DNA of 64,000 nucleotides from Flavobacterium sp. ACN6 (GTDB lineage Bacteria; Bacteroidota; Bacteroidia; Flavobacteriales; Flavobacteriaceae): positions 124,001 through 188,000 of the forward strand of contig NZ_MRCQ01000009.1 in NCBI RefSeq assembly GCF_002304005.1, written 5' to 3'. A model generated the notes under the pieces. The model was not told the origin of the DNA, made no database searches, and was given only the letters and a program-made list of their open reading frames with translations. Below are positions 5,004-17,287 of this stretch, piece after piece (the stretch's first letter is position 1; each line of letters starts with the position of its first letter). The translations under genes were made by a program, and so were the position numbers.

Positions 5004-5384
5004 TTATGCTAGGTTTTTTTCAACTTCAGCTTTGTGCTTTCTTAAAATGGCTCTAGTCATACCTAGGTTTGCTTTTGAAGCATCTGCAGCAAGGTAGATC
5101 ATAAATTTTTTGTTCGGAGAAATATCGATAATGTGGATTTGATTCGATAAAGTAATCAAAATATCTTCGATGTCTTGGTTGAGGTTTAAGGCTTTTACCG
5201 CATTTAATTTGGCTTTTACAACTTCTAAGTTATAAGCCGCTGCAAGTTCTGGGTCAAAACCTGGATCGATTGTTAAATTTCCAAAGCTTAATCCAGATTC
5301 AATTTCTGTTACAGCGACAGCGATAAAGCCGTTTACGTTTGTTTTCATTTCATTTAAAAACACGTTTAAAAAATCATTACTCAT
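5004..5384 (-). CDS. Roadblock/LC7-like protein, copy 1 (large partner)
   Basis: A 126-aa soluble protein with no signal peptide. It is about 60 percent identical by eye to the 124-aa protein at 17632-18006; shared blocks include NVNGFIAV, FDPELA, AYNLEVVKAKLNA, DILITL and QIHIID. The alternating strands and single long helix suggest a roadblock/LC7 (profilin-like) fold. Such proteins typically dimerise and act on small Ras-like GTPases, as MglB does on MglA, but no GTPase gene is in the window. It is the second gene of a two-gene operon, 32 bp after the gene starting at 5773. Its biological role is unknown. Confidence 0.7.
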   Translation of the reverse strand: MSNDFLNVFLNEMKTNVNGFIAVAVTEIESGLSFGNLTIDPGFDPELAAAYNLEVVKAKLNAVKALNLNQDIEDILITLSNQIHIIDISPNKKFMIYLAADASKANLGMTRAILRKHKAEVEKNLA

Positions 5385-5416
5385 AGTTTGTGGGTTTGTT
5401 TGTTAATAGATTTATG

Positions 5417-5773
5417 TTATTTCAGTAGGGAATTTTTGCTTAATTCAGCAGATACTTCTTCTGTTGAGCGCATCAATAATGCAAGATTGCTTCCTTCTTT
5501 CGAAAAAGCAACAATAAAATTAGAGCCGCTAATTTTGTTTCCAACAATAACGCCTTCTGCACTTTTTAAATATAGTTGTTTTAATGAGCCTTTTTCTAAG
5601 TCAATTAAGAACTTTTCGCTCATTGATAAAATTGCGGCACTCATTGCGGCAATACTGTCTCCGTAGTCTAGGTTTAAGGAAGTGATTAGTTTTCCTTTTC
5701 CGTTTAAGATTAATGCTGCGGTCGATTTTGTGCTGACAAGAAAGTCATTTAAGGTAGTTGTAATTTCATTCAT
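5417..5773 (-). CDS. Roadblock/LC7-like protein, copy 1 (small partner)
   Basis: A 118-aa soluble protein with the roadblock/LC7 pattern: an N-terminal helix, a strand with AALILNGKGKLI, a helix around AAMSAAILSMSEK, then GSLKQLYLKSAEGVIV. The GxLKQ..xK..xGIVV block and the AAM...IL.M helix are shared with the protein at 17288-17608. It is first in a two-gene minus-strand operon. The tiny gene at 5955 is divergent from it across 181 bp. The function is not known. A GTPase-regulatory or scaffold role is inference from the fold only. Confidence 0.7.
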   Translation of the reverse strand: MNEITTTLNDFLVSTKSTAALILNGKGKLITSLNLDYGDSIAAMSAAILSMSEKFLIDLEKGSLKQLYLKSAEGVIVGNKISGSNFIVAFSKEGSNLALLMRSTEEVSAELSKNSLLK

Positions 5774-5954
5774 GATTTTGTAGGATTTTGGGAAGAATGT
5801 TAAATTCAGTTCATTTTGGTATTTGTTTGAGAAATTAATAGCGAATCATCCTAAACAAGTGTTAATTTTAATTAACAAATATAAATTAATTTATGTATCA
5901 TTGTAATACCAAATCATTAATAATTTAAATTATTTACTGTAAAAAACTTACATT

Positions 5955-6170
5955 ATGGGTAAAGTATTGAAATTCAAAGAAGTAAACTCTGACGTAGAGC
6001 GCAGAATGAAAGATTTTGAAAAACTGCGTATCAAGTTTAAAGCAGATGTAAAAAAGGGCGAAGCGAAAAAGCTTGCTGCCGGAAAAGAGAGCAAAGGAAT
6101 ATTCAAATCGATTTCAGATTTTTTCTCCGACAGTCCAAAAACACCCGCAAAAGTGCCTGTGAAAAAGTAA
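5955..6170 (+). CDS. Tiny basic protein divergent from roadblock operon, copy 1
   Basis: A 71-aa Lys-rich protein without signal peptide or membrane segment. It has a charged amphipathic helix (VERRMKDFEKLRIKFK) followed by a basic linker and KGIFKSISDFF, and ends in a Pro/Lys tail. It is divergent from the roadblock/LC7 pair. A 47-aa protein at 16857-17000 has the same relation to the second roadblock pair and shares the pattern F-x-[KR]-[LF]-R-I, then K-[GR]-x-F-K-x-I. Both are probably members of one small family that works with the roadblock proteins. An imperfect -7 element (TATCATTG) lies about 55 bases upstream. Confidence 0.65.
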   Translation: MGKVLKFKEVNSDVERRMKDFEKLRIKFKADVKKGEAKKLAAGKESKGIFKSISDFFSDSPKTPAKVPVKK

Positions 6171-6979: not shown

Positions 6980-7035
6980 CTTTATTGGGATTTAATATTT
7001 AATTGTGCTATTTTTACAATACTAAAACCAAACTT

Positions 7036-10000
7036 ATGCAAAGTCCGTCTTTCTCTATTTATGATGCTTCTGCAGGATCAGGAAAGACTTATACTCTGGT
7101 AAAAGAATACCTGAAAATTATTCTTTCTTCTCCAAAAAACGATGCCTATCGAAATATTCTTGCCATAACTTTTACCAATAAAGCGGTTCATGAAATGAAA
7201 AGCCGTATTGTTGGAAGTTTATCTGAATTTGCAAAAGATGATCCTTCTTTAAAAGCTGCAGATCTAATGGAAGATCTTTCGCGCGATACCGGACTTTCAA
7301 TTATCAAAATTAAAACCAAATCGCAGCAGATTATTAAGCACTTAATTCATAATTATGCTGCTTTTGATATTTCTACCATTGATAAATTTACCCATAAAGT
7401 TATTCGTGCTTTTGCACATGATTTAAATCTTCCAATGACTTTTGAGGTTACGCTTGATACCGAGAATTTATTGGTTGAAGCTGTTGATGCTATTATTGCT
7501 CAAGCGGGAGAAGATGAAACATTGACAAAATTACTCATCGATTTTACAATGGAAAAAACCGATGATGATAAAAGCTGGGATGTTTCTCGTGAGATTCTGG
7601 ATACGGGAAGATTGGTTTTGAATGAAAATAATCGAAATGAGATTTTGCATTTTCAAGACAAAAGCATTGAAGAGTTTGTTGAGATTAAACAAAAAATGCA
7701 GGCGCTTTGCAAAGAATTAGAATCTAAGAATGAAGCATTGGCTTCTAACGCAATTGAATTAATTGATAAAAACGGAATTGATTCAAAATCATTTTCCAGA
7801 GGAACTTTTCCGAATCATTTAGAAAGTATTCGAGATGGAAAGTTTAATCCAAAGAATAAAACCTTTCATGAATTTGAGGATATTGCAATTAACAAAACGG
7901 CAAAAGACCGAGCGTTAATAGAAAATATTATTCCCGAACTGCTTCAAATGTTAAAAGAGGTTTATCAAAATTTTGAAAAAAGAGATTTTTATAAAGCCTT
8001 CTTAAAAAATATTACGCCGCTTTCATTGCTGAATACAGTAAGTAATGAGTTGGCAAAAATTCAATCGGAACAAAATATATTATCGATTTCAGAATTCAAT
8101 GCTATTATTCATAGGGAAATTCAAAATCAGCCGGCGCCATTTATTTATGAGCGTTTAGGAGAGCGTTACCGTCATTTTTTTATTGATGAATTTCAGGATA
8201 CATCAGAAATGCAATGGCAGAACTTAATTCCTTTAATTGATAATTCGCTTTCGGGGTTAGATGATTATGGAAATAAAGGAACGCTGATGATTGTGGGAGA
8301 TCCAAAGCAGTCTATCTATCGCTGGCGCGGCGGAAAAGCAGAGCAGTTTATAGAATTAAGTAAAGATGTAAATCCGTTTAATAATCCAGATAAAGCAATC
8401 AAGCATTTAAATACCAATTATCGCAGTTTTAGCGAAGTTATTGATTTTAACAATGCTTTTTTTAAATTGATTTCCGCGGAATTTTCAAATGAAGATTATA
8501 AAGATTTGTATGAAAATCATAGTTTTCAAAATACAAATTCAAAAAAAGGCGGTTATGTAAATATTTCTTTTCTTCCAATTGTAGATAAAAATGAATTTCT
8601 TGATGAAGACGAGGTTGTAGAAAAATCGGATTTGTATGTTTTGGCGACTTTAAATACAATTCAGGAAGTGGTTAGGCAGGGTTTTGAATATAAAGATATT
8701 GTGATTCTGACCCGAAAAAGAGATCAAGGAATTGCAATCGCGAATTATTTAACCGAACAGGGGATTCCGCTTTTGTCTTCGGAAACCTTGATGATTCAAA
8801 ATGCAGCAGAAGTTCGTTTGGTTATTCATTTACTTCGATACTTAAATAACAGTGCAAATTTAGAAGCGAAAGCTAATTTTTTGCATTTCTTGGCTTCAAA
8901 TACAGATTTGAATACGCCTGTTCATGATTTTATTGCAAAAGGAATGAGTTACAGGTTGGAAAAAGAATTCGAAGAGTGGCTTTTGACTTTTGATGTTTCT
9001 TTTTCATTTGAAGATGTTCGGAAAAAATCTTTATATGAAGCAGTTGAAATTATTATTTCGAAGTTTATTCTGCCTTCGGAAGGAAATGCTTATGTGCAGT
9101 TTTTTTTAGATATTGTTTTAGAACGAGATATTAGAAATCAATCTGGAGTCGCAGATTTTTTAGTTTTCTGGGATAAGAATGCTCATAAATTTAGTATTCC
9201 TTCTCCAGAAGGGAACAACGCAGTTCGAATTATGACCATTCATAAATCGAAAGGATTGGAATTTCCCGTTGTAATTATGCCTTTTGCTGACGAAGATTAT
9301 AATCGAAAACCAAAAGATAAATTATGGCTCGACACTGAAGAAACCGATTTAGGTGTTCCGAAAGCGCTGGTTGATAACAGTAGTGTTGTTGAAAGTTTTG
9401 GTGAAAGTGCTTCGGCGGTCTTTAATTTGAAAAAACAAGAAGAATTATTAGATAATATAAATGTTTTATACGTGGCTCTAACGCGCGCAGAAGAACAATT
9501 GTATGTGATTTCCCAATCGCTGAAGGCAAAAAACGATGGAGAATATCCAAATAATATGGCTTCCTTTTTTATTAAGTTTTTGATCAATGAAGGTGTTTAT
9601 GATGAGGAGAAATTGAATTATGAATTCGGTGATAAAATGAGGCTTTCAAAAAATACAAAAACAGTCGATTTGGTAAAATCAATTCCAATTGTAAAAGAAG
9701 TCTTAAATCCTAAAAGTATTAAGATTGCACAGCGCGAAGCTTTGATGTGGGGAACACATCAGCAGGAAGCAATTTCTTATGGGAATATTGTTCATGAGAT
9801 TTTGGCGTTTGTAAAAGATAAGTCAGATATTGATTTAGCGGTAACAAAAGCTCTCGAAAATGGATTGATAACCTACGACCAAGTTGATATGGTATTGCAG
9901 ACCTTGCGTGAAATTGTAAATCATCCTGAATTAGCTCTTTGTTTTGATGGAAATCATACGGTTTTGAACGAGCAGACAATTGTGCAAAAAGAAGGAAGAA

Positions 10001-10194
10001 TTTTAAAACCGGATAGAGTTGTGTTTTTAGAAAGCAAAGAAGCTTTTTTATTAGATTATAAAACAGGGGCTGTGAATAGTAAATATCAGCAGCAAATTCA
10101 AGAATATCAAGATGCAATTGAAGATTTGGGATACAAAGTGTTAAAAAAGGCATTGGTATATATAGGGTCGGAAATTGAAGTGGTAAATTTGTGA
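7036..10194 (+). CDS. UvrD/RecB-like helicase-nuclease, AddA type
   Basis: Subunit of a double-strand-break processing exonuclease/helicase. The 1052-aa protein has all UvrD-family motifs in order: Walker A DASAGSGKTYT near residue 10, IDEFQDTSEMQW, VGDPKQSIYRWRGG, NYRS, TIHKSKGLEFPVV and YVALTRAEEQLY. A C-terminal PD-(D/E)XK nuclease follows, seen as GNIVHEILA and LLDYKTG...QIQEYQ. The ATG at 7036 is chosen because the upstream in-frame extension gives an unlikely N-terminus. The AddB-like partner lies at 13114, separated by kbl and an ompA-type gene. Confidence 0.88.
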   Translation: MQSPSFSIYDASAGSGKTYTLVKEYLKIILSSPKNDAYRNILAITFTNKAVHEMKSRIVGSLSEFAKDDPSLKAADLMEDLSRDTGLSIIKIKTKSQQIIKHLIHNYAAFDISTIDKFTHKVIRAFAHDLNLPMTFEVTLDTENLLVEAVDAIIAQAGEDETLTKLLIDFTMEKTDDDKSWDVSREILDTGRLVLNENNRNEILHFQDKSIEEFVEIKQKMQALCKELESKNEALASNAIELIDKNGIDSKSFSRGTFPNHLESIRDGKFNPKNKTFHEFEDIAINKTAKDRALIENIIPELLQMLKEVYQNFEKRDFYKAFLKNITPLSLLNTVSNELAKIQSEQNILSISEFNAIIHREIQNQPAPFIYERLGERYRHFFIDEFQDTSEMQWQNLIPLIDNSLSGLDDYGNKGTLMIVGDPKQSIYRWRGGKAEQFIELSKDVNPFNNPDKAIKHLNTNYRSFSEVIDFNNAFFKLISAEFSNEDYKDLYENHSFQNTNSKKGGYVNISFLPIVDKNEFLDEDEVVEKSDLYVLATLNTIQEVVRQGFEYKDIVILTRKRDQGIAIANYLTEQGIPLLSSETLMIQNAAEVRLVIHLLRYLNNSANLEAKANFLHFLASNTDLNTPVHDFIAKGMSYRLEKEFEEWLLTFDVSFSFEDVRKKSLYEAVEIIISKFILPSEGNAYVQFFLDIVLERDIRNQSGVADFLVFWDKNAHKFSIPSPEGNNAVRIMTIHKSKGLEFPVVIMPFADEDYNRKPKDKLWLDTEETDLGVPKALVDNSSVVESFGESASAVFNLKKQEELLDNINVLYVALTRAEEQLYVISQSLKAKNDGEYPNNMASFFIKFLINEGVYDEEKLNYEFGDKMRLSKNTKTVDLVKSIPIVKEVLNPKSIKIAQREALMWGTHQQEAISYGNIVHEILAFVKDKSDIDLAVTKALENGLITYDQVDMVLQTLREIVNHPELALCFDGNHTVLNEQTIVQKEGRILKPDRVVFLESKEAFLLDYKTGAVNSKYQQQIQEYQDAIEDLGYKVLKKALVYIGSEIEVVNL

Positions 10195-10276
10195 AAAAAT
10201 TAATCAGATGTTAAAGAAATAACGAAGCTTTATTTTGGTTAAGTTGTTAATTTTTAACGTTTTAAATATATAAAAA

Positions 10277-11470
10277 ATGTACGGTAAAATTAAAGAACAT
10301 CTGCAAAGTGAGTTGCAGACCATAGAAGAAAATGGAATTTTCAAAAAAGAACGAATTATTACATCACCTCAAGGTGCTGAGATTAAAATTTCAACTGGTG
10401 AAACAGTTTTAAATTTTTGTGCTAATAATTATTTAGGGCTTTCATCACATCCAGAAGTAGTTCAGGCGGCGAAAGATGCTATGGATACTCATGGTTTCGG
10501 AATGTCTTCTGTTCGTTTTATCTGCGGTACACAGGATATTCATAAAACATTAGAGCAAAAAATAGCTGATTTTTACGGTACAGAGGATACTATTTTATAT
10601 GCGGCGGCTTTTGATGCAAACGGAGGTGTTTTTGAGCCATTACTTGGTGAAAATGATGCAATTATTTCGGATAGTTTAAATCATGCTTCTATTATTGATG
10701 GCGTTCGTCTTTGTAAAGCGGCACGCTATCGCTATGAGAATAACAATATGCAAGATCTAGAACAACAGTTAATTAAGGCTAATGAAGCTGGAACTCGTTT
10801 TAAATTAATTGTAACAGATGGTGTTTTCTCTATGGACGGCTTAGTGGCGCCACTTGATAAAATTTGTGATCTAGCAGATAAATACGATGCAATGGTAATG
10901 GTAGATGAATGCCATGCTGCAGGATTTATTGGTGCTACAGGAAAAGGAACTCTTGAGGCAAAGGGAGTGATGGGGAGAGTGGATATTATTACAGGAACTC
11001 TTGGTAAAGCTTTAGGAGGTGCAATGGGAGGATATACTACAGCAAAGAAAGAGATAATTGAGTTGCTTCGTCAAAGATCAAGACCATATTTGTTTTCAAA
11101 TTCTTTAGCGCCTGCAATTGTTGGAGCTTCAATTAAAGTTTTTGAATTATTAGAAAAAGATACCACATTACGCGATAAACTGGAGTGGAATACCAACTAT
11201 TTTAAAGATGGAATGAAAAAGGCTGGTTTTGACATTATAGATGGAGATTCTGCAATTGTTCCTGTTATGTTATATGACGCAAAATTGTCACAAACTATGG
11301 CAGATGAACTTTTGAAACAAGGAATTTATGTTATTGGTTTCTTTTTTCCGGTTGTGCCGAAAGAAAAGGCCAGAATACGCGTCCAGCTGTCTGCAGCGCA
11401 TGAAAAAGAACACTTGGATAAGGCGATTAATGCCTTCACAGTTGTCGGTAAAATGTTAAAAGTTATATAA
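10277..11470 (+). CDS. kbl: Glycine C-acetyltransferase (2-amino-3-ketobutyrate CoA ligase)
   Basis: A PLP enzyme that converts 2-amino-3-oxobutyrate plus CoA to glycine and acetyl-CoA, the second step of threonine breakdown through threonine dehydrogenase. It is 397 aa and belongs to the alpha-oxoamine synthase family. Key motifs are [25 protein letters not shown] with the cofactor-binding Asp and His, and TLGKALGG with the PLP lysine. Related enzymes (BioF, serine palmitoyltransferase) are alternatives, but near-continuous Kbl-like motifs favour kbl. No threonine dehydrogenase gene is adjacent. Confidence 0.9.
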
Positions 11471-11515
11471 TTACCACTTTGGTCAAATTTTTGTAGGTTT
11501 TTTTTAACATTTCAT

Positions 11516-11546
11516 TTTGTATTTAAAAAATTTGGTGTTACTTTTG
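11516..11546 (+). promoter_or_regulatory. Strong Bacteroidota-type promoter of the OmpA gene
   Basis: TTTG at 11516-11519 and TACTTTTG at 11539-11546 are separated by 19 bp. This matches the TTTG-N19-TAnnTTTG primary sigma consensus of the phylum. The expected start site leaves about 30 bases of leader before the ATG at 11584. Confidence 0.8.
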
Positions 11547-11583
11547 CTTGTAATTAACTAAATTGTAATTAAAAAAATTAAGT

Positions 11584-13050
11584 ATGAAACATCTTAACAA
11601 ACTTTTAGTTGCTGTGTTGATGGCGATGGGTTTAAGTTCTCACGCACAAGACAGTAACAATCCATGGGCGATCTCTTTCGGGGTTAATGCTGTGGATACC
11701 AGAACTAGTGCAAGTCCGGACCATGTTGACTTTTTTCCTGCACACTTTTCTCAGCCATTTGATGCAAAAGATAACTGGAATATTCTTCCTTCTTTATCTT
11801 ACATTGGAGTGTCTAGATATGTTGGGAGCGGTTTCTCTGTAGGTTTACAAGGATCTGTGAATAAAATCGACAAGTATGTTACTTTTAATCCATCTGCTGC
11901 AGGTAGTGATGGAAGAGGTATGGTTGTAACTAATCCTGGTGACTTAATGTACTACGGAATTGATGCTACTATCAAATACAGCTTCCAAGAATTAATCAAA
12001 TCTAAAGTGATTGATCCTTCGTTATCTGTTGGTGGAGGTTATACTTTCTTCGGAGATAGCAGTTACGGAACTGTTAATCCAGGTGCTGGTATTACTTTCT
12101 GGTTTACAGATGCTATTGGTCTTGAGTTAGCTACAAGATACAAATGGTCTGTTAGTGGTGATAGAGAAGATGCAGCTGGTGTTCCAGATGCTCCATCTCA
12201 CTTCCAACACACTGCAGGTTTAGTTTTCAAATTCGGAGGTAAAGATACTGACGGAGACGGAATCTATGACAAAGACGATGCTTGTCCAGATGTTGCTGGT
12301 TTAAAACAATTCAACGGATGTCCTGATACTGACGGAGACGGAATCGTTGATGCTTCTGACGCTTGTCCAGATGTATTCGGTTTAGCAGCTTTAAACGGTT
12401 GTCCTGATACTGACGGAGACGGAATTGCTGATAAAGATGATGCTTGTCCAGATGTTGCTGGTTTAGCTGCTTTAAAAGGTTGTCCTGATACTGATGGAGA
12501 CGGAATCGCTGATAAAGACGATAAATGTCCTACAGTTGCTGGTCCTAAAGAAAACGGTGGTTGCCCATTCTTAGATGCTGATAAAGATGGTGTTGCTGAT
12601 AAAGATGATGACTGTCCAACAGTTTATGGTCCTGCAAGTAACAGAGGATGTCCAGAAGTAACTTCTGAAGCATTAGAAGATCTTAAAGTTCAAGCTAGAG
12701 CAATCTACTTCAACTCAGGAAAAGCTACTTTCAAATCAGGAGACAAAGAAACTCCAGCAAGATTAGACGCTATTAAAGAAATCCTTAAAAACTATCCAAA
12801 CGCGAAATTCAGCATTGAAGGTCACACAGATAGCGATGGTTCTGATAAATTGAACCAAAAACTTTCTGAAGATAGAGCTGCTGCTGTTATGAACGCTTTG
12901 ATCGAAAGAGGAGTAAATGTTGATAACTTAGTATCTAAAGGTTTTGGTGAGTCTCAACCAGTTGCAAGCAACAAAACTGCTGCAGGTAAAGCTCAAAACA
13001 GAAGAACAGAAATTAGACACATTGGTTCTAAATACCAAGGTAAAATCTAA
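11584..13050 (+). CDS. OmpA-family outer membrane protein with TSP3 repeats
   Basis: A 488-aa secreted protein with signal peptide (cleavage after SSHAQ or nearby). An N-terminal beta-barrel-like domain spans about residues 25-215. Then come five thrombospondin type 3 Ca-binding repeats ([17 protein letters not shown]...NGCP, about 220-360). The C-terminal OmpA peptidoglycan-binding domain carries IEGHTDSDG and LSEDRAAAV, with NRRTEI near the end. It probably links the outer membrane to peptidoglycan. It has a strong promoter and its own terminator, so it is likely abundantly expressed. At DNA level the TSP3 units at 12241-12650 are near-identical tandem repeats. Confidence 0.92.
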
Positions 13051-13071
13051 TTTACTTTCTAAATAAAAAGG

Positions 13072-13103
13072 AAAAGCCATTCTTAATTGAATGGCTTTTT
13101 TTA
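13072..13103 (+). terminator. Terminator after the OmpA gene
   Basis: AAAAGCCATTC and GAATGGCTTTT form an 11-bp perfect stem with a six-base loop and a T run. An alternative upstream start of the next gene (TTG at 13087) would lie inside this hairpin and is rejected. Confidence 0.9.
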
Positions 13104-13113
13104 TTTTTATACT

Positions 13114-15876
13114 ATGATAAATACTTCTTTTCTTCAAAAAATTGCTGGTGTCGTAATTCAAGATTATGCGGAGAAACTGTCTCAAATAACGATAATTCTT
13201 CCTAACAAAAGAGCTAAAGTTTTTTTGATTGATGCTCTTAAAAAGGAAACTAATAAAACTATTATTGCTCCTGAAATTACTAGTATTGAAGATTTTGTGC
13301 AAGACGTCGCGTCCATACGTTCTATAGATTCAATTGAACTTTTATTTGAATTCTATGAAGTTTATTTATCGATTACCGAAAAAAAGAATCAGCAGTCATT
13401 TGAGTTATTTGCTAACTGGGCAAAAACGCTGTTGCAGGATTTTAATGAAATTGATCGTTATCTTTTAGATCCTTCGCATGTTTTATCCTATCTGAAAGAT
13501 ATTGAGGATATAAAAAAATGGGGACTGGAAGTAGATCAAAAAACAAAACTTCTAGAAAATTATATTGATTTCTGGAAATTACTTCCCTTGTATTATGATT
13601 CCCTCTATAATCATTTGTTGTTTAAATCTATAGGCTACCAAGGTTTGGTATATAGAGAGGCTGTAAATAATTTGAATCATTTCTCAAATACAATTGGCAA
13701 TCGTATTTTTATTTTTGCAGGATTTAATGCTCTTAACGCTGCAGAGGAAAAAATAGTACAGCATTTATTAGCTTTAGATCAGGCTAAAATTTATTGGGAT
13801 GCTGACCAAACTTTCCTAAATGATCCTTATCATGATGCCGGACTTTTTTTAAGACGTTTTAAAGAGAGTTGGAAACATTACAAATCAAATATTTTTGAAT
13901 GGATTGTAGATGATTTTTCGCAGTCAAAAAATATTCAGATTATTGGAACTCCTAAAACAATTGGGCAGGCAAAATTAACGGGAAGTATAATTGAAAATTT
14001 AATTGATCAAGACCCTGGCACATCTTTAGATAAAGTAGCCGTCGTGCTTGGTGAAGAGAATTTATTAGTTCCGGTTCTATATTCGCTTCCTTCTTCTGTT
14101 GGATTTTTGAATATCACGATGGGATATTCGGGAAAAAATAATCCATCTCAAATTTTGGTTGCTAAGTTATTTAAAATGCATACTAATGCACTTTCTCGTA
14201 AAGGAGGCAGTTATGTTTTTTATTATAAAGATGTGCTGGATGTTTTAACGCATCCTTTAGTTGAGCCTTATGCAAATGCTCAGGCGTTAGTAAAAATTAT
14301 TAAAGAGAATAATTATACTTTTATTACGCATTATAAAATTTTGGAACTTCATTCTAATCCTTCTTCCTTTTTTGATCTCTTATTTGAAAAATGGGAAAGT
14401 GGTTCTGTTGCTGTTTTAAAGAATATTTCGGCTTTGCTTATTGCAATTAAAGAACATTTTAGCAACGATAATGAACAAGAGAAAATTGCAAAGGCATTTG
14501 TTTATGGGGTTTTTAAAGTAATTAATAAACTTATAAATTACTATTCAAAACACAACCATATCGATAATATTGATACACTTCATGCTATTTATAAACAGAT
14601 TATAGATCTTGCCGAAGTATCTTTTGAAGGTGAGCCGTTAAGAGGCTTGCAGATTATGGGGGTTTTGGAAAGCCGTGTTTTAGATTTTGAAACCGTTATT
14701 ATAACGTCAATGAATGAAGGCAAATTCCCTGCTGGAAAATCTCAGAATTCTTTTATCCCGTATGATGTAAAACGCGAATTAGGTCTTCCGACTTTTAAGG
14801 AAAAAGATGCAATTTATACGTATCACTTTTATCATTTACTGCAAAGGGCAAAGAATATTTATCTAATTTATAATACTGAAAACGACGGACTAGATGCGGG
14901 TGAAAGAAGCCGTTTCATCACCCAATTAGAAGTAGAAAAACAAAGAAAGCATAATATCACTTTCGATATTTATAATCCAGTGCTTCCAAATACCGCTTAC
15001 GAACCTATTTCTGTTACGAAATCGGAAGCAGTTATGGAACGTTTGAAAGAAATAGCCGCAACAGGTTTTTCTCCGTCGGCATTAACGAGTTACATTCGGA
15101 ATCCGATTGATTTTTATTTTCAAAAAATACTGCGAATTCGTGAAGTGGAAGAAGTAGAAGAAAATATCGCTTTAAATACTTTGGGAACTATTATCCATGA
15201 AACTTTGAAAGCTTTATACGAGCCTTTTATTGGGAAATTTATTGCTGAAAATGATCTTTTAAATTGTTTTAAATTATTGGATGATGAAGTTTTAAAGCAA
15301 TTTAAATTAGTTTACAAAGAGGGAGAAATCAAGAAAGGACGAAATCTTTTGGCTTTTGAAGTTGCGAAACGAAATGTTGCCAATTTCTTAAGAATGGAAC
15401 TAGAATCCATAAAAAATGATGAGGCGATTCAGATCATTGCTTTGGAACAGACTTTTCAACGCGAATTTGTTCATCCGAAACTGCCTTTTCCGGTTTTGAT
15501 TAAGGGAAATGTCGATCGTATTGAGCGACGTGACGGGAAAATTAGAATTATCGACTATAAGACGGGAAAATTAGAAAAAGCGAGTGTAGTGCTGAAAACA
15601 TGGAATGGTTTAACACAGGAGCTTAAAAACGATAAAATTATCCAAGTATTGGCGTATGCATATATGTTTGAGAAAGAAGCTGGAAATCTGCCAATTGAAG
15701 TGGGGATTATTTCATTTAAAAATTTAAAATCTGGTTTCCTGCCTTTTGGGTTTAAAGAAGAGAAAGAGTTAAATACAACCGTAACACCCGAAATGTTAAA
15801 TTCTTATCTAGATGAAATTGCTAATTTGTTAGCCGAAATTTTTAATCCTGCTATCCCTTTCGAGGAAAAAATATAA
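13114..15876 (+). CDS. AddB-like PD-(D/E)XK nuclease / inactivated helicase
   Basis: Probable partner of the AddA-like protein at 7036 in break resection. The 920-aa protein starts with a helicase-like half in which the Walker A is degenerate (IILPNKRAKVFLIDAL), as in AddB. It ends with a PD-(D/E)XK nuclease: SPSALTSYIRNP near residue 650, LGTIIHETLKALY, and IDYKTGKLE in the catalytic core. The AddB iron-sulfur cysteine normally found in the S..Y...CP motif is Asn here (RNP), so the cluster is probably absent. The ATG at 13114 is used because the upstream TTG lies in a terminator stem. Confidence 0.82.
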   Translation: MINTSFLQKIAGVVIQDYAEKLSQITIILPNKRAKVFLIDALKKETNKTIIAPEITSIEDFVQDVASIRSIDSIELLFEFYEVYLSITEKKNQQSFELFANWAKTLLQDFNEIDRYLLDPSHVLSYLKDIEDIKKWGLEVDQKTKLLENYIDFWKLLPLYYDSLYNHLLFKSIGYQGLVYREAVNNLNHFSNTIGNRIFIFAGFNALNAAEEKIVQHLLALDQAKIYWDADQTFLNDPYHDAGLFLRRFKESWKHYKSNIFEWIVDDFSQSKNIQIIGTPKTIGQAKLTGSIIENLIDQDPGTSLDKVAVVLGEENLLVPVLYSLPSSVGFLNITMGYSGKNNPSQILVAKLFKMHTNALSRKGGSYVFYYKDVLDVLTHPLVEPYANAQALVKIIKENNYTFITHYKILELHSNPSSFFDLLFEKWESGSVAVLKNISALLIAIKEHFSNDNEQEKIAKAFVYGVFKVINKLINYYSKHNHIDNIDTLHAIYKQIIDLAEVSFEGEPLRGLQIMGVLESRVLDFETVIITSMNEGKFPAGKSQNSFIPYDVKRELGLPTFKEKDAIYTYHFYHLLQRAKNIYLIYNTENDGLDAGERSRFITQLEVEKQRKHNITFDIYNPVLPNTAYEPISVTKSEAVMERLKEIAATGFSPSALTSYIRNPIDFYFQKILRIREVEEVEENIALNTLGTIIHETLKALYEPFIGKFIAENDLLNCFKLLDDEVLKQFKLVYKEGEIKKGRNLLAFEVAKRNVANFLRMELESIKNDEAIQIIALEQTFQREFVHPKLPFPVLIKGNVDRIERRDGKIRIIDYKTGKLEKASVVLKTWNGLTQELKNDKIIQVLAYAYMFEKEAGNLPIEVGIISFKNLKSGFLPFGFKEEKELNTTVTPEMLNSYLDEIANLLAEIFNPAIPFEEKI

Positions 15877-16856: not shown

Positions 16857-17000
16857 TTAACTGAATATTTTTTTGAAAAAACCTCTCTTGGTCTTATCTC
16901 CAGAATTTGTGGTATTGATGTTTCCGTTTTCAATACGAAATCTTCTAAATTTCTCCAGTTTTACATTTAGGTCAAAGCGTAATTCGTCAACAGTTTTCAT
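16857..17000 (-). CDS. Tiny basic protein divergent from roadblock operon, copy 2
   Basis: A 47-aa ORF, too short for most gene callers. It begins MKTVDELRFDLNVKLEKFRR, continues with FRIENGN and ends with KRGFFKKIFS. It has a matching promoter: TAGATTTG at 17017-17024 and TTG about 21 bp upstream of that. It lies divergent to the second roadblock/LC7 pair, exactly as the 71-aa gene at 5955 does to the first. The two share a D..V..[KR][ML]..F.[KR][LF]RI helix and a K[GR].FK.I ending. No membrane segment or signal is present. A role with the roadblock proteins is inferred from context. Confidence 0.65.
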   Translation of the reverse strand: MKTVDELRFDLNVKLEKFRRFRIENGNINTTNSGDKTKRGFFKKIFS

Positions 17001-17016
17001 TTGAATAAATTTTTTA

Positions 17017-17048
17017 CAAATCTATATAAAAACTTTTGGGTAATGCAA
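17017..17048 (-). promoter_or_regulatory. Promoter of the 47-aa gene
   Basis: On the minus strand TAGATTTG (17017-17024) fits TAnnTTTG and a TTG lies at 17046-17048, 21 bp upstream. The predicted leader is about 10 bases. This supports the tiny ORF as a real gene. Confidence 0.6.
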
Positions 17049-17250
17049 CAATCTAGAAATGTTAATTTTAGATTTGAATTTTATGAAGCGAAATGTTATG
17101 ATTTTAGAATTATATGTTTTTTCTGTTAATTTTTTTTAAATATTTCATCCAAAAAAAGACGATTAATTAAGCGATAAATAAAAGTGATTCAGGATGTTAT
17201 ACGTGTCTTTTTTTTAACAAGTGTTTATCGCGCAATTGTTAATATTGAAA

Positions 17251-17258
17251 TATCTTTG
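17251..17258 (+). promoter_or_regulatory. -7 element of the second roadblock operon
   Basis: TATCTTTG is a full match to TAnnTTTG and lies 29 bases before the ATG at 17288. A clear -33 TTTG at standard spacing is not seen. The 17049-17250 stretch between the divergent promoters holds no other gene. Confidence 0.6.
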
Positions 17259-17287
17259 ACCCTTCCAAAACATGACAAATAAAGAAT

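Follow-up and report, generated by a model that had tools for sequence, protein, structure and literature searches.

The window analysed here, a stretch of 64,000 nucleotides from Flavobacterium sp. ACN6, carries two copies of a three-gene locus in which two different roadblock proteins are encoded in tandem and a tiny protein is encoded divergently upstream of them, and this trio is a real unit. As the original prediction had stated, both loci are present with the same layout and are mirror images of each other, with the gene for the small roadblock protein followed by that for the large one and the tiny gene diverging upstream (Table 1). The two large proteins, for which an identity of about 60 percent had been claimed, are 63% identical over 123 aa, and the small ones 34% over 93 aa. 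A third copy of large is found elsewhere in the host genome (5.1 Mb, 44 contigs), where it stands solo, without small or tiny alongside. Named loci with a large protein up to 98% identical to large B all belong to Flavobacterium. The distance of about 12 kb between the two loci recurs in many other genomes of the genus; in the window, the region between the trios (7003-15876) encodes, as judged by eye, AddA- and AddB-like helicase-nuclease subunits, an OmpA-like protein and an aminotransferase-like enzyme.

Table 1. Features of trio loci A and B, in window positions.
Feature	Position	Strand	Basis
Large A, predicted roadblock-fold protein, 126 aa	5004..5384	-	Fold inferred from copy B model
Small A, roadblock protein, 118 aa	5417..5773	-	Upstream of large A; Pfam Robl_LC7
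Divergent intergenic region, tiny A/small A	5774..5954	.	Gene starts
Tiny A, divergent protein, 71 aa	5955..6170	+	A2 profile matches at the same place in genus genomes; pN/pS
Tiny B, divergent protein, 47 aa, tail KRGFFKKIFS	16857..17000	-	Profile matches; pN/pS; tail likeness to MinD membrane-targeting sequence
Divergent intergenic region, tiny B/small B	17001..17287	.	Gene starts
Small B, roadblock protein, 106 aa	17288..17608	+	AF2 model; family profile
Large B, predicted roadblock-fold protein, 124 aa	17632..18006	+	AF2 model; Foldseek

Both operon proteins had been proposed to be roadblock-like, and for the small protein this follows from several lines of analysis. Small A matches the Pfam family Robl_LC7 with 31.3 bits at a cut-off of 23, small B reaches 20.4 bits and stays under that cut-off, and a profile built from the small proteins retrieves an Asgard roadblock chain from the PDB with an E-value of 4e-9. 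The best AlphaFold (AF2) model of small B, calculated from 18 sequences, has a pLDDT of 88.5 (76-79 for the other four models) and the element order a-b-b-a-b-b-b-a, and in a structure search its best matches include MglB as well as roadblocks from Asgard archaea. On the strength of the family match in copy A, the profile and the model, small is a member of the Roadblock/LC7 superfamily. Large A and B are matched by no Pfam model, Robl_LC7 included, NCBIfam holds no model for any of the six proteins of both loci, and searches with large against the PDB by single sequence and by profile gave nothing of note. The AF2 model of large B (15 sequences) nevertheless reaches a pLDDT of 93.2 and a pTM of 0.87 with the order a-b-b-a-b-b-b-a, and Foldseek places MglB chains (6hjm/6h5b) first by E-value, with E from 2e-7 and TM up to 0.83, and finds the Asgard Roadblock3 with a TM of 0.85. 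The models of large B and small B both also match LAMTOR chains. As model and Foldseek agree while sequence profiles find nothing, we take large to have, by prediction, a roadblock fold to which none of the sequence libraries searched gives a name. Both predicted structures are thus roadblocks, and the proposal stands for either protein.

The original prediction took the trio for a functional module, and its conservation across genomes bears this out. Among 109 distinct large sequences above 130 bits, gathered from the best 80 of 283 relatives and the best matches of genome searches with identical large sequences counted once, 77 are accompanied by small and tiny, 29 by neither and three by small only; in two of these three cases (L067 and L112) the contig ends at the locus, while in the other (L054) no tiny was found. 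The layout is fixed, with small in the same orientation as large and tiny in the opposite one in 77 of 77 trio loci, 51 of which are B-type orthologues, so that the rows are not independent. When, as an independent test, each gene was searched separately in 121 genomes of the genus, host included, large was found in 30, tiny in 26 and small in 25, and neither tiny nor small ever occurred without a large gene or a large remnant. All 26 tiny-bearing genomes are among the 30 large-bearing ones (hypergeometric 1.4e-22, a value that treats related genomes as independent). Of these 30, G046 has a contig-end fragment and G053, G066 and G108 have solo large copies only; G032, where large is a remnant, is the one genome of the genus with tiny but without small. 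Each of the 47 tiny matches, nine of them stretches that cross a stop codon, is accompanied on the other strand, at a distance of at most 1.5 kb, by large (44 genes and three remnants, the latter at locus B of G006 and of G063 and in G032), and small is nearby for 46. Conversely, 24 of the 71 large matches in these genomes have no tiny near, and small is present at none of the 24. In the gathered loci, 111 of 112 tiny profile matches (overlapping loci counted) have a divergent small gene within 800 bp. Tiny goes with small most strictly, more so than with large. In F. luminosum (L123:4526-5978), a tiny-small unit precedes a complete trio. Neither outcome that the original prediction had named as refuting it, a trio not conserved in other genomes or structure predictions lacking the roadblock fold, was observed.

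All three genes are under purifying selection, as evidenced by pN/pS values of 0.09 for large, 0.09 for small and 0.19 for tiny at locus B (51 sequences), and of 0.08, 0.21 and 0.34, respectively, at locus A (seven sequences). For each gene, pN was lower than pS in 1275 of 1275 pairs of locus B and in 21 of 21 pairs of locus A. A motif TAnnTTTG in the intergenic region was considered as a shared promoter, being present towards small in 64 and towards tiny in 41 of 77 loci, and was set aside as there was no chance control.

The tiny proteins had been said to be basic and to share motifs. Both statements are true of tiny A and tiny B, which have the motif F-x-K/R-x-R in common, but homology of the two is not demonstrable (no significant BLASTP match, E 1.9; hhalign probability 22%) and was dropped, and tiny proteins at large are not all basic, with a net charge from -9 to +15 (median +6) at lengths of 42-115 aa, as calculated from open reading frames as listed, some with extended starts. 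Among the groups of tiny proteins, hhalign links B with C (98%), C with D (89%) and B with D (47%) and leaves A unlinked. Two short parts stand out. At the N-terminus, the pattern KLxxFxKxR has its F and R invariant in 12 diverse tiny proteins, and F-x-[KRSN]-x-R is kept in 73 of 77. At the C-terminus, the tail KGFFKKIFS is similar to KGFLKRLFGG, the membrane tag of MinD (PMC5471200), with the pattern K-G-F-x-K-x-x-F common to tiny and the MinD membrane-targeting sequence as given there; this likeness is one of a short motif and implies no homology. The strict tail pattern is found in 54 of 75 distinct tiny proteins as compared to 11 of 9640 other open reading frames, and the 10 listed of these 11 bear the tiny tail themselves. 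For the tail of tiny B, 49% of shuffled sequences reach a hydrophobic moment as high in an 11-residue window, and the N-terminal helices are likewise unremarkable; the sole raised value belongs to a 14-residue stretch of the tiny A tail (1.1% of shuffles as high). Long tiny proteins end in tails of the GFFGRRR type without clear amphipathicity. A plasmid of Acinetobacter wuhouensis (L221:551-1516) encodes, between a roadblock gene and a large-family gene, a 321-aa protein whose tail, SGFFGKLRKKLGF, is like those of long tiny proteins. This likeness was set aside, the protein being a single case with no other relative in the plasmid collection.

That the two loci arose by a duplication that retained the whole arrangement, as had been suggested, was not upheld. 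A tree of large does not show A and B as sisters and leaves the order of the trio groups open, with A on a long separate branch, so that a simple duplication in situ of A into B finds no support; the two are separate lineages, and nothing shows that either locus was copied from the other. The tree, which has a midpoint root and few columns, includes about nine of the 51 B-type rows and omits L034, L035 and rows that score below 60 bits or are shorter than 100 aa. The trio layout is kept in six trio groups of the tree, and trios at named loci come from Flavobacterium, Aestuariibaculum and an uncultured Aquimarina, among others. Beyond the genus, and counting the own genome in each case, large was found in 5 of 149 genomes at family level, at least 20 of 395 at order level and at least 25 of 395 at phylum level, the last two being lower bounds because at most 11 candidates per genome were scored.

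Roadblock proteins raise the question of an associated small GTPase, and the observation that none is present at the loci can be extended to the host genome, in which none was found either. Profiles for Arf and Ras matched only frames of 304-963 aa there, which we read as the sizes of house-keeping GTPases, with no single-domain Ras/Arf-like GTPase among them, and a query with the small GTPase of genome G272 found no match. The same query was negative in all 15 chosen Flavobacteriaceae genomes with a large match and in G427. With the Ras profile, a Ras-like GTPase of 171-172 aa was detected in two of the 15 (G262 and G156), both trio-bearing and with the gene far from the trio; the other 13 gave no Ras match at E 0.001 in a frame below 290 aa. 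The picture is different in distant relatives, where large, a roadblock gene and a small GTPase occur together in three of the nine non-Flavobacteriaceae genomes with matches in the phylum search, G272 (L150), G538 (L155) and G645 (L161). The G272 protein scores 34 bits with Ras at a cut-off of 21.6, 'MglA-like' being a label only, without comparison to MglA, and adjoining the roadblock and GTPase genes is a receiver domain fused to a large-type roadblock (L150:7680-8501). The G645 neighbourhood includes a protoglobin. On a plasmid of Agarilytica, the genes found with large encode a roadblock, a BLUF protein and a GTPase-like protein that exceeds the cut-off of ATP_bind_1 and falls just short of that of Ras (20.0 bits). 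In favour of the membrane scaffold proposed below, a protein with a carboxypeptidase regulatory domain, in which inspection by eye shows a hydrophobic stretch, is encoded near large in G427 and in Hymenobacter canadensis. The original prediction had called the partner of the roadblock proteins unknown, and the field can be narrowed by the constant partner gene tiny and by the GTPase beside some of the distant relatives of large. Nothing in the analysis points to gliding, polarity or secretion, the processes that the original prediction had put forward for assay.

Our preferred reading, advanced tentatively and with somewhat less than even confidence, is that the trio encodes a membrane-tethered roadblock complex that works with no small GTPase dedicated to it. 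The tandem-encoded small and large proteins would assemble into roadblock dimers, in all likelihood by pairing one with the other. The N-terminal helix of tiny, with its KLxxFxKxR motif, would dock on such a dimer, and its aromatic and basic C-terminal tail (GFFKKIFS, or of the GFFGRRRS type in other branches) would hold the dimer at the inner membrane, where the complex may then recruit or position a client. What the analysis shows is the predicted roadblock folds, the fixed trio, purifying selection and a host genome in which no single-domain Ras/Arf-like GTPase was detected; that small and large pair up, that tiny binds them, that the complex is attached to the membrane and that it serves as a scaffold is inferred. 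The docking partner of tiny is likely small or the small-large dimer, since tiny tracks small more strictly and since a tiny-small pair occurs in L123. We count against the scaffold the unremarkable moment of the tiny B tail, the unclear amphipathicity of the GFFGRRR tails, the lack of demonstrable homology between tiny A and tiny B, the existence of solo large copies, the occurrence of relatives of large in other phyla, and the Ras-like GTPase elsewhere in the trio genomes G156 and G262.

In its workings, the proposed complex would broadly resemble Ragulator, or the binding of MglC by the RomR tail. The roadblock fold is common to the trio and the MglA/MglB system of Myxococcus and Thermus, MglB chains ranking first by E-value among the solved structures similar to the large model; the trio differs in that no small GTPase was found in the host genome and in that it combines two different roadblocks with a tiny divergent protein. 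Comparable in organisation are MglC and the orphan MglB proteins (PMC7949163, PMC12719032, PMC4316618, PMC11112851), which are, like the trio roadblocks, not encoded beside a GTPase, although in the cases studied, from Myxococcus and Snodgrassella, MglA is present in the cell. MglB and MglC bind each other (PMC7949163), and the C-terminal helix of RomR binds MglC with a KD of 2.6 nM (PMC12719032). This short helical segment, RomR 371-420, is what we liken the proposed binding of tiny to, with the difference that the RomR ligand is part of a response regulator whereas the trio has a separate divergent gene. In Ragulator/LAMTOR, p18 tethers roadblock heterodimers to the membrane (PMC5680233), and two different roadblocks with a small membrane-attached protein are also what we propose for the trio, whose gene layout and tail are consistent with such a scaffold. 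As described in that source, p18 carries a lipid at its N-terminus and encloses two heterodimers, and the Rag GTPases are clients; no homology of p18 and tiny is claimed. The conservons, or actinobacterial G protein systems (AGPS), are likewise compact roadblock operons, with accessory proteins in some (PMC13343842), but the conservon set is one of kinase, roadblock, CvnC and GTPase in an operon, and no kinase or small-GTPase gene was seen among the open reading frames at the window loci, inspected by eye. One may go further and see in the trio a bacterial Ragulator-like device of the Flavobacteriaceae, in which a tail-anchored tiny protein would tie a complex of two roadblocks to the membrane and which would descend from GTPase-linked systems after loss of the GTPase, such that the platform and not the switch would be the conserved core; in this extended form we hold the idea to be doubtful.

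The most serious alternative, possible if on the doubtful side, is that small and large regulate in trans an NTPase outside the Ras family, either a house-keeping GTPase or an ATPase of the ParA/MinD type, with tiny as an accessory. The closest folds do include MglB, a GAP, large is found with a roadblock and a small GTPase in G272, G538, G645 and the Agarilytica plasmid, and in G478 (L152:5743-8668) an AAA_31/ParA-type ATPase gene lies between two large-family genes. NTPase genes also stand beside single trios, that for an ABC-transporter ATPase ending 8 bases from tiny B in the window and that for an Obg-like GTPase lying downstream of the trio in L025 (both names read from the sequence). 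However, no NTPase gene recurs beside the trios in the 16 loci read, 10 of them trios, the B orthologue L010 lacks the ABC gene at that place, and the GTPase of the G272 type is unmatched in the 15 Flavobacteriaceae genomes. Divergent genes often regulate one another, and the strict divergent placement of tiny together with the basic character of tiny A and B would suit a DNA- or RNA-binding regulator of the small-large operon in place of a structural partner. We consider this decidedly unlikely, given that tiny has no match to a DNA-binding family in Pfam and NCBIfam and that its conserved parts, a short N-terminal motif and a membrane-anchor-like tail, do not, from their sequence, resemble a DNA-binding fold.

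Two further readings of the trio rank lower still. Its patchy occurrence (30 of 121 genomes at genus, 5 of 149 at family and at least 20 of 395 at order level) and the decayed copies in G032, G006 and G063 would fit a fading relic, or a lineage-specific accessory of little function that is moved and lost freely, but across the genes of the two loci pN/pS ranges from 0.08 to 0.34, pN is below pS in all pairs, the layout is kept in six groups of the tree, and the same gene (DusB-like by eye) is found downstream of the trio in L024, L036 (another genus) and L123, all of which makes this highly improbable. The patchiness would also be expected of a toxin-antitoxin or defence module, as would a two-gene operon flanked by a peptide that is small and basic and has a membrane-like tail; tiny would then be the toxic peptide that the roadblocks neutralise. 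PADLOC gave no match above noise (best E 0.007), large is unmatched in the phage collection at E 1e-5, and the toxin role is disfavoured because in G006 and G032, where its partners have decayed, tiny is still free of internal stops, so that we give this explanation hardly any credence.

In the literature searched, which covers few subscription journals, we found no description of the trio, in agreement with the original prediction, which knew of no described system of this shape. Roadblock genes without MglA as such are not new. A census of 2014 listed 328 of 749 MglB-family proteins as not coupled to MglA, none of these orphans having been characterised by then, and reported MglB-family genes in 238 genomes but both families in 200, so that they were already known as a count (PMC4316618). 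The orphans studied since, MglC and MglB-3 of Snodgrassella, live in cells with MglA as far as seen in the sources cited. New here are the fixed trio and its tiny partner, and the trio adds to this background a genome without a detected Ras/Arf-like single-domain GTPase and a partner gene that is strictly inherited along with the roadblock pair. It could reveal what roadblock proteins do without a small GTPase switch, and such a role is directly testable, as there are a genome in which no such GTPase was found, a co-inherited partner and a workable member of the genus, Flavobacterium johnsoniae CI04, in which locus B is present (L114).

Large is not confined to the trio. Of the 29 solo copies among the gathered loci, 26 cluster (support 83/92) inside a group (98/92) that also includes four trios with long tiny proteins, joint loss of small and tiny from the solo copies being the simplest reading. 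Relatives of large are also found on plasmids of Actinomycetota, Pseudomonadota and Deinococcota, and among nine plasmid regions inspected three have an annotated roadblock neighbour and one a GTPase-like protein. As solo copies persist without small and tiny, and as relatives occur in other phyla (26 plasmid records) with no tiny known there, large can act outside the trio. A plasmid origin was rejected, as none of the 26 matching records reaches 60% identity, and so was a phage origin, large having no match at the threshold given above; PHROGs likewise gave nothing better than E 0.02. In F. covae, F. columnare and F. davisii (L132, L136 and L144), three to four solo large paralogues with near-identical C-terminal halves stand in a row, L132 having an additional copy split in two fragments, in what looks like a recent tandem expansion.
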